A stretch of DNA of 56,448 nt from a virus. Numbering within the stretch: the first letter of the stretch is position 1; every line of letters starts with the position of its first letter. Below are positions 53,742 to 55,069 of this stretch, one piece after another. The position numbers were made by a program, and so were the translations under genes. The DNA lies in the IMG/VR virus record IMGVR_UViG_3300046777_001585, positions 1 through 56,448 of that record; one strand, written 5' to 3'. The notes under the pieces are model-generated. The model worked only from the letters and a program-made list of their open reading frames with translations, was not told the origin of the DNA and made no database searches.

Positions 53742-53842
53742 CAGTTATCCCTCCGCAGTGCCGCGAGTATCAGGAAAAAGGCGAGCTTGCCGATGATGGC
53801 CAGAACGCCAGGGGACGCTGGCGGCTTGATGTTCAGTCTCAC
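53741..53842 (-). CDS. 33-aa membrane peptide
   Basis: GTG at 53842, with AAGGGGG ahead, opens MRLNIKPPASPGVLAIIGKL followed by AFFLILAALRRDN. Residues 12-28 form one membrane helix, flanked by basic residues on the inside. It lies between the methyltransferase pair and the previous gene, overlapping both by a few bases, so it belongs to the same operon. Function is unknown. Confidence 0.6.
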   Translation of the reverse strand: MRLNIKPPASPGVLAIIGKLAFFLILAALRRDN

Positions 53843-54567
53843 GTCGTCCCCCTTAAAAGTTGAAATGCATATGCTGCCACTGCCGGAACTTGTCCGTTGC
53901 CAAGGGCTTTGAGTCTGTCCACCCGAGCGGCCACCCCATTAGCCACTCTACCCACGTCGGGTTCAAGGTCCCACGCGCCCACTCCTCCGGGGTGGTCCCG
54001 CGAATCCTTGGGTCGTTCCCAAGCATTCGTTGCATCTTTCCCTTCGGGGTCCCGGCTGCATCCTCGTTCGCCTGCGGAGTGAGCCACAATCCAGATCCTG
54101 TCCCTTTTGTGCGGGGCACCAACGTCGGCTGCTCCCAGCACTCCCCATCTCGCATCAAACCCCAACGAGGCCAGGTCACCAAGGACTGTCTCGAGCCCTC
54201 GCCGAGTAAGCATGGGGCTGTTTTCCACGAACACGAATCGGGGTCGTACTTCGCTAACCACCCGCGCCATTTCTCTCCACATTCCGCTGCGCTTTCCTCT
54301 AATCCCATATTTTTGGCCTGACGTTGATATGTCTTGGCATGGAAACCCTCCAGATACAACGTCAACAACTCCTCGCCACGGCCTGCCGTCAAAGGTTTGA
54401 ACGTCATCCCAAATCGGGAAAGGCGGGAGAATTCCGTCATTTTGTCTGGCGACAAGTACGCTTGCGGCGTAGGGCTCCCACTCGACAGCGCATACGGTTC
54501 GCCATCCGAGCAAGTGTCCGCCGAGTATTCCTCCACCAGCGCCTGCGAAAAGAGCCAGTTCATTCAT
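53839..54567 (-). CDS. dcm: DNA cytosine-5 methyltransferase
   Basis: ATG 54567 has GGAGGG upstream and yields 242 residues; the longer open frame from 54657 lacks such a site. Motifs: ALFAGAGGGILG (5-16, motif I, S-adenosylmethionine), GGFPCQDIS with catalytic Cys77 (motif IV), FVENSP (114-118, motif VI), RDRIWIVA (motif VIII region) and ALGNGQVP (221-228, motifs IX/X). The target-recognition region is very short (about 163-205). It would methylate cytosine at C5, protecting phage DNA from restriction. Almost all of it is also read in another frame by the nested gene 53853-54563. Confidence 0.9.
   Translation of the reverse strand: MNELALFAGAGGGILGGHLLGWRTVCAVEWEPYAASVLVARQNDGILPPFPIWDDVQTFDGRPWRGVVDVVSGGFPCQDISTSGQKYGIRGKRSGMWREMARVVSEVRPRFVFVENSPMLTRRGLETVLGDLASLGFDARWGVLGAADVGAPHKRDRIWIVAHSAGERGCSRDPEGKDATNAWERPKDSRDHPGGVGAWDLEPDVGRVANGVAARVDRLKALGNGQVPAVAAYAFQLLRGTT
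53853..54563 (-). CDS. Overprinted gene nested in dcm, conserved unknown protein
   Basis: A second frame on the same strand is open for 236 residues. It starts at ATG 54563, only 4 bases after the methyltransferase start (shared ATGAATGAAC), and ends 14 bases before its stop. Its product MNWLFSQALVEEYSADTCSD, then LSRFGMTFKPLTAGRGEELL, TWPRWGLMRDGECWEQPTL and the end LNPTWVEWLMGWPLGWTD is Trp-rich and not what random overlap gives. From memory I know very similar proteins in other phages beside cytosine methyltransferase genes, with the same start and the same WVEWLMGWPxGWTDLKPL end. The function is unknown; a methyltransferase partner is an inference. Confidence 0.7.
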   Translation of the reverse strand: MNWLFSQALVEEYSADTCSDGEPYALSSGSPTPQAYLSPDKMTEFSRLSRFGMTFKPLTAGRGEELLTLYLEGFHAKTYQRQAKNMGLEESAAECGEKWRGWLAKYDPDSCSWKTAPCLLGEGSRQSLVTWPRWGLMRDGECWEQPTLVPRTKGTGSGLWLTPQANEDAAGTPKGKMQRMLGNDPRIRGTTPEEWARGTLNPTWVEWLMGWPLGWTDSKPLATDKFRQWQHMHFNF

Positions 54568-55069
54568 GCCCTCCCTCCAGTATTTCGAATTCGAATGACA
54601 GACAATCGCACGCCAGCCCGCCCGCGTCGTGGTCCGTGCAGAATTCCGGGTCATCATCGCAGCCGATGCACTCGCCTAATTCCGGGTGTGATTCCAGCCA
54701 GCCCGCGATCTCCGTGGACTCCTCATCAGTCAGACCGGACTCATCGCCATATACTAGTGCGCTCACCCAGTGCGCGGGCAACGTGAAGAAAGCCCGCCCA
54801 TCTACCAGCACGCATAGATCCGGATCAGTAGTCGGGATTTCCGTGATGAAATAGCCGACGCGGTTGATGTGAGAATAACCGGAGGACACATACAGACTGC
54901 CGTCGCAGTCTATTAGGGTCCACACTTTGCCCGCGTCGATATCAAGCGCCGTGCGTACGTGCACGATTTCATCGCCGAATGTCTCGAACAAATGACCATT
55001 GAAACCAGCATGATCATCGAGGTGATTCTGCATCGGCTTGAATTTTTCCAGCCAGTCTGAATAGTTCAT
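54560..55069 (-). CDS. Conserved phage accessory protein
   Basis: This 169-residue acidic protein begins MNYSDWLEKFKPMQNHLDDH and contains AGFNGHLFETFGDEIVHVRT, KVWTLIDCDGSLYVSSGYSH and INRVGYFITEIP. The (V)WTLIDxDG..Y...GYH.(I/V)NR.GYF(V/I)TE pattern is familiar from phages, with no known function. A Cys cluster near the end (CIGCDDDPEFCTDHDAGG) is notable. It overlaps the methyltransferase start by 8 bases. Confidence 0.7.
   Translation of the reverse strand: MNYSDWLEKFKPMQNHLDDHAGFNGHLFETFGDEIVHVRTALDIDAGKVWTLIDCDGSLYVSSGYSHINRVGYFITEIPTTDPDLCVLVDGRAFFTLPAHWVSALVYGDESGLTDEESTEIAGWLESHPELGECIGCDDDPEFCTDHDAGGLACDCLSFEFEILEGGHE

Follow-up and report, generated by a model that had tools for sequence, protein, structure and literature searches.

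A second gene in the +1 frame of a phage cytosine methyltransferase gene as candidate specificity subunit of the same enzyme

Two genes that share nearly all of one stretch of viral DNA very probably encode the two chains of a single phage C5-cytosine DNA methyltransferase. The window, by which we mean the whole stretch analysed, is a 56,448-base IMG/VR virus record, and the analysis was computational throughout. One gene, dcm, encodes the catalytic chain; the other, alt, covers 98% of it and would encode the specificity subunit, which carries the TRD and motif IX. A preliminary description had proposed two proteins from one 730-base stretch in different frames and had called the function of the second one unknown. 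The 236-codon ORF was located in the +1 frame of dcm, and its function can now be assigned with good confidence as that of a specificity/motif IX chain. The description named no strand for this finding; both genes lie on the minus strand. The two starts are 4 nt apart in ATGAATGAAC, as had been stated, and the in-frame TGA directly before the second ATG means that alt cannot extend upstream. Translation of alt may be coupled to the upstream ORF, rather than to dcm, through an ATGA overlap. The features of the locus are as follows.

54560..55069, minus strand: upstream ORF, whose TGA stop overlaps the second ATG (ATGA, 54560..54563)
54568..54578, minus strand: Shine-Dalgarno-like purine-rich stretch GGAGGGAGGGC, which could serve both starts
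54558..54567, minus strand: double start ATGAATGAAC, with TGA directly before the second ATG (start survey of 165 relatives)
53839..54567, minus strand: dcm, catalytic chain of a C5-cytosine methyltransferase, 242 aa, motifs I-VIII and X (PF00145, phrog_363, AF2 match to M.HhaI)
53853..54563, minus strand: alt, nested second gene, 236 aa, dcm +1 frame, proposed specificity/motif IX subunit (phrog_1008, no stops, purifying selection)
54337..54339, minus strand: codon of the catalytic Cys77 in dcm motif IV (GFPCQ); C77 is invariant
54097..54114, minus strand: dcm motif VIII (PHKRDR); to about here, dcm is the better preserved frame
53938..54072, minus strand: TRD and motif IX region, second frame preserved (LWLTPQANED...LNPTWVEWLMG), dcm near neutral over the TRD (53 pairs vs 1)
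53916..53966, minus strand: motif IX in the second frame, LNPTWVEWLMGWPLGWT (hhalign to actinophage methylase C-termini; frame table)
53854..53913, minus strand: motif X in the dcm frame, LKALGNGQVPAVAAYAFQLL (46 pairs vs 9 preserve the dcm frame)

In the proposed enzyme, the dcm chain would provide AdoMet binding and catalysis (motifs I-VIII) together with motif X, and the nested +1 chain would provide target recognition, through its W/LPTP segments, and motif IX. Motif IX organises the TRD in canonical enzymes. We infer that both chains are translated from one message, with starts 4 nt apart and one shared purine-rich ribosome-binding region, and that they associate into an active enzyme whose sequence specificity would come from the nested chain. 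Its presumed purpose would be the protection of phage DNA from host restriction, because this is the usual role of phage methylases.

The catalytic motifs of dcm had been described as intact, and motifs I, IV (PCQ), VI (EN), VIII and X of a C5-cytosine methyltransferase were all found, with GNGQVP in motif X and with C77, E115, and N116 invariant. The protein matches PF00145 over aa 4-167 (1e-31, above the cut-off) and phrog_363 (3e-65). Its AF2 model (pLDDT 76) folds well except for aa 169-221, which are mostly below pLDDT 50, and the best PDB match of the model is M.HhaI (Z 20.7, 3.0 Å, 201 of 327 residues). Although the model thus aligns with an M.HhaI-type single-chain C5 methyltransferase, the dcm chain differs from such enzymes in that it has neither an ordered TRD nor a canonical motif IX: aa 169-221 are disordered in AF2, and the TRD evolves near neutrality. 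The second chain modelled alone has a mean pLDDT of 54, its C-terminal 35 residues being the best part (about 70-83). The disordered segment of dcm and the poor model of alt alone are what one would expect of chains that complement each other, although they do not prove it.

Selection was analysed frame by frame. As in OLGenie, differences were counted according to what they change in either frame, for 64 independent nearest pairs that are 68-93% identical. The second frame gave a dNN/dNS of 0.13 (0.11-0.16) and a dSN/dSS of 0.31 (0.28-0.37), and the remaining same-strand frame gave 1.81 and 0.84; in an all-pairs version, the corresponding values were 0.24 and 0.31 for the second frame and 1.03 and 0.90 for the remaining one. 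Purifying selection was found on both frames, as in an overlapping gene pair. In the region of motifs I-IV, constraint is very strong on dcm (dNS/dSS 0.05) and moderate on the second frame (dSN/dSS 0.30). The order is reversed in the TRD (dcm aa 165-200), with a dSN/dSS of 0.13 for the second frame and a dNS/dSS of 0.77 (0.48-1.87) for dcm, a value consistent with neutral evolution. When changes that affect dcm only were set against those that affect the second frame only, in windows of 15 codons, the ratio stays below 1 up to aa 165, reaches 11.6, 5.4, and 5.2 over aa 166-210, and falls to 1.0 over aa 211-225 and 0.24 over aa 226-240. In the pairwise comparison, all 64 pairs preserve dcm better over motifs I-VIII (dcm aa 4-160); over the TRD and motif IX (dcm aa 166-210), 53 of 54 preserve the second frame better, and at motif X, 46 of 55 again preserve dcm better (46 vs 9). 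The frame that selection preserves thus changes twice, to the second frame at the TRD/motif IX and to dcm once more at motif X. Independently, the DevRi clade (Paenibacillus phage) switches just after motif VIII and returns at motif X (12 pairs, including some near-duplicates). The history of the pair probably involves more than the plain overprinting of dcm with a new protein, because the C-terminal half of alt is a methylase TRD/motif IX module and dcm looks like a passenger there.

The nature of the second chain is indicated by its C-terminal half, which consists of W/LPTP segments followed by LNPxWVEWLMGWPxGWT; the consensus of the module in relatives is W/LPTP segments and LNPxWVExLMGxPxGWT. 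The product has no match in Pfam or NCBIfam profiles, and it matches phrog_1008 (5e-22) and, at its C-terminus, three smaller PHROGs. PDB profile searches with the second chain and with actinophage C-terminal halves returned nothing meaningful. In comparisons with actinophage methylase C-termini (A4), alt matches at LPTP and EWMMGWPxGW (hhalign probability 97, E 1e-11) and dcm matches at motif X (E 2e-4). The module lies between the TRD and motif X, which is the canonical place of motif IX (compare KLTPRECWRLQGFPDWA of Streptococcus phage Javan33). In L339, a prophage locus with a GC content of 0.38, a 158-aa chain is nested in a 238-aa methylase; it is related to DevRi gp57 (E 5e-24) and has a near-canonical motif IX end, KLLTPEDGEELMGYPQEW. 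Judged by its sequence, L339 is a bridge between the nested family and ordinary enzymes. L375 was dropped as a second candidate bridge, because its nested chain does not end at the site in question. Two scans of second chains with motif IX profiles were weakly supportive; with a profile of ten canonical enzymes, the expected site was the best window in 69 of 154 second-chain proteins. Since the direct scan is weak, the motif IX label rests on position, on the hhalign/profile comparison, and on the L339 bridge. The first 60 residues of the second chain (54384..54563), an extension over motifs I-III that begins MSWLFSQALVEEYS, occur in the window clade only, yet are constrained. In addition, a WPTP segment (WPTPTAHNAKE...) recurs in the TRD of otherwise different second chains (L005, L009, L016, L020, L030, L032, L057), which suggests exchange of TRD segments with both frames kept open.

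There is only a very slight chance that the second frame is an untranslated by-product, open merely through conserved dcm residues and codon bias. Same-strand +1 frames in GC-rich genes can be long, and those of control canonical methylases are open for up to about 200 codons. However, when codon usage was held constant by synonymous permutation, 5.5 stops per gene were expected in the second frame of 88 relatives and 0 were present, the mean chance of an open frame being 0.0024 per gene. For the dcm gene of the window, 4.9 stops were expected, and the alt frame was open in 0 of 400 permutations. Canonical cytosine methylases from sampled Gammaproteobacteria, in contrast, had +1 stops as expected (18 vs 17.6; 30 vs 27.4), and the clear exceptions among these controls, L339 and L345 (the latter from the genome of L185), are themselves nested pairs. 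The frame is open in AT-rich genes too (L339) and on a Bacteroides plasmid. Its start is kept in all 165 relatives surveyed, as ATG in 162 and GTG in 3, and the in-frame codon before it is a stop in 160. The dcm codon at the matching position is ATG in 87 loci, GTG in 47, TTG in 11, and none of these in 20, so that dcm must start elsewhere in the last group, and the second start is kept even there. A GGAGG ending 4 nt before the dcm start, and hence 8 nt before the second ATG, was found in 38 of the 165. The selection tests already contradict a by-product, as selection over the TRD is stronger on the second frame than on dcm. A scan of viral contigs with the second protein returned at least 598 relatives, the best 80 of which are 92 to 45% identical; in a dcm-anchored scan that kept the best loci only and overlaps the former set, the second frame was open with ATG at +4 in 79 of the best 80 loci. 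The second gene thus has every sign of being real and is presumably translated. The absence of stops in relatives, the control methylases, the dcm-anchored scan, and the selection tests strongly support its earlier reading as an old overprinted gene and not a chance frame. The phage proteins that had been described as near-identical do form a family, but the term overstates the similarity: the closest GenBank phage match is 49% identical, and the IMG/VR matches listed reach 92%.

Homologues of the second product are not always nested in dcm, a point that had been put forward for checking; some are fused to a methylase or form a split second chain. A single 550-aa methylase of Mycobacterium phage Philonius holds the same module between motif VIII and motif X. 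Phage Koko has a catalytic ORF that ends behind motif VIII; LPTP segments, EWMMGW, and motif X are encoded by the ORF that follows it in the +1 frame. The DevRi clade has three layouts side by side, namely nested loci, split loci in which the catalytic ORF ends after motif VIII and TRD-IX-X are on a second chain (L364, L392, L396, L397), and single-chain loci (L395, L403). Arranged by layout, motif IX is in the +1 frame and motif X in the catalytic frame in the window clade and DevRi; both motifs are in +1 on a second chain in Koko, L260-L274, L364, L392, L396, and L397; and all parts are in one ORF in Philonius, L395, and L403. In a frame table built from pattern-based calls, with many loci outside the resolved set, motif IX was in the catalytic +1 frame and motif X in the catalytic frame at all 70 resolved window-type viral loci, and both were in +1 at all 15 actinophage loci. 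The adjacent, overlapping actinophage genes of Koko (gp22/gp23, L256) and L260-L274 are both annotated 'DNA methylase', and their sequences suggest a split enzyme of the M.AquI type, with one chain encoded by each gene.

It is improbable that the second product acts separately, as a regulator, an inhibitor, or an anti-restriction protein, and that its gene lies within dcm by mere coincidence. Its first 60 residues are clade-specific and have no counterpart in shorter second chains, yet they are constrained, and an extra role is possible. Against a separate protein, some homologues of the C-terminal half are joined to the catalytic domain of a methylase (L395, L403, Philonius), others are a split second chain together with motif X (L364, L392, L396, L397, Koko), and the nested ones lie in the +1 frame of dcm. 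Of the functions guessed at earlier, a methyltransferase partner is favoured, as a TRD/motif IX chain, by the selection switch and the fused and split homologues, and an inhibitor or an anti-restriction protein is less favoured. Still less probable is programmed frameshifting, by which the second frame would be joined to dcm as the TRD of one longer polypeptide. In the actinophages and at L364, L392, L396, and L397, where the catalytic ORF ends behind motif VIII and TRD-IX-X go on in +1, frameshifting at that point would yield a full single-chain enzyme. In the window clade, however, the second frame has no motif X; a single +1 shift would produce an enzyme without this motif, and the conserved second start codon would be unnecessary. 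The preferred reading, a two-chain enzyme, faces seven loci in which the dcm frame is broken and the second frame is open, by stops in L014, L180, L190, L208, L215, and L239 and by a frameshift in L249; the reverse case is clear in one locus (L079). These seven count against a strict two-chain enzyme unless they are decaying prophages or sequence errors. The second chain may also have a role of its own at such loci, but the breaks were rejected as proof of a second protein acting alone, as prophage decay and sequence errors are equally possible.

In M.EcoHK31I, the small ORF overlaps the large ORF in another frame. M.AquI and M.EcoHK31I are exceptions that consist of two polypeptides: in M.EcoHK31I the smaller has motif IX only and the larger has motifs I-VIII, X, and the predicted TRD, and M.AquI is split after motif VIII, with motifs IX and X on the small chain (PMC3404938). 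The dcm/alt pair is likened to M.EcoHK31I (C5, YGGCCR) by motif layout, not by sequence, with motifs I-VIII and X on one chain and IX on the other; in the window, IX is in the +1 frame and X in the catalytic frame. The TRD of M.EcoHK31I is predicted on its large chain, whereas here selection places it on the nested chain, and the phage/prophage pair differs further in its 98% overlap and in starts 4 nt apart. M.AquI (CYCGRG) is a natural two-chain enzyme to which Koko and the L364-type relatives are similar in plan. Actinophage L260-L274 have motifs IX and X together on the second chain, whereas the window keeps motif X on the catalytic chain and its genes are nested. The pair would therefore represent the known motif split of M.EcoHK31I, but in an apparently unrecognised and widespread variant with almost complete overlap. 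A literature search found no prior report of a phage methylase overlap, although one may exist. The PHROG 1008 profile, labelled 'DNA methyltransferase', matches the nested chain, Koko gp23 (1e-73), Philonius (4e-71), and DevRi gp57 (6e-72); its nested members lack catalytic motifs, and the label gives no hint of nesting in, or of being a subunit of, another methylase gene.

It seems likely that a large and mostly unannotated class of phage and prophage cytosine methylases encodes a specificity subunit in the +1 frame of its own catalytic gene, with selection handed over domain by domain. Small frameshifts appear to convert fused, split, and nested forms into one another, and it is in the hidden frame that target specificity would evolve. 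Hundreds of phage/prophage relatives retain both frames. The family is present in 65 GenBank phage records and at 188 loci of a species-level bacterial and archaeal collection; phrog_1008 matches occurred in 27 of 398 sampled genomes of one phylum, and in 28 of 30 loci examined from that survey the methylase was in the same relative frame. Annotations in GenBank records cover either frame alone, and one P. larvae phage record has both, with the remark 'Not called by any program' on the nested gene.

If the two-chain reading is true, a common class of phage methylases has been annotated with half its parts, since gene callers choose one of the two frames, which is then named 'hypothetical protein' or 'DNA methyltransferase'. 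Cloning dcm alone would give an inactive enzyme, and predictions of specificity from dcm would read the wrong frame. The locus would be an unusually clean natural case of two almost fully overlapping genes that divide one enzyme, with a measurable switch of selection, and one could test how overlapping genes may originate from an enzyme that was split or fused, as opposed to wholly de novo. The M.EcoHK31I motif split would be extended to hundreds of phage loci and an archaeal plasmid. The family is also found on plasmids of Acinetobacter, Pseudomonas, Leptospira, Bacteroides, and the archaeon Methanomethylovorans. On the Methanomethylovorans hollandica plasmid pMETHO01 (L281) and a Bacteroides fragilis plasmid (L282), the nested frame has a motif IX-like end and is open over most of dcm.
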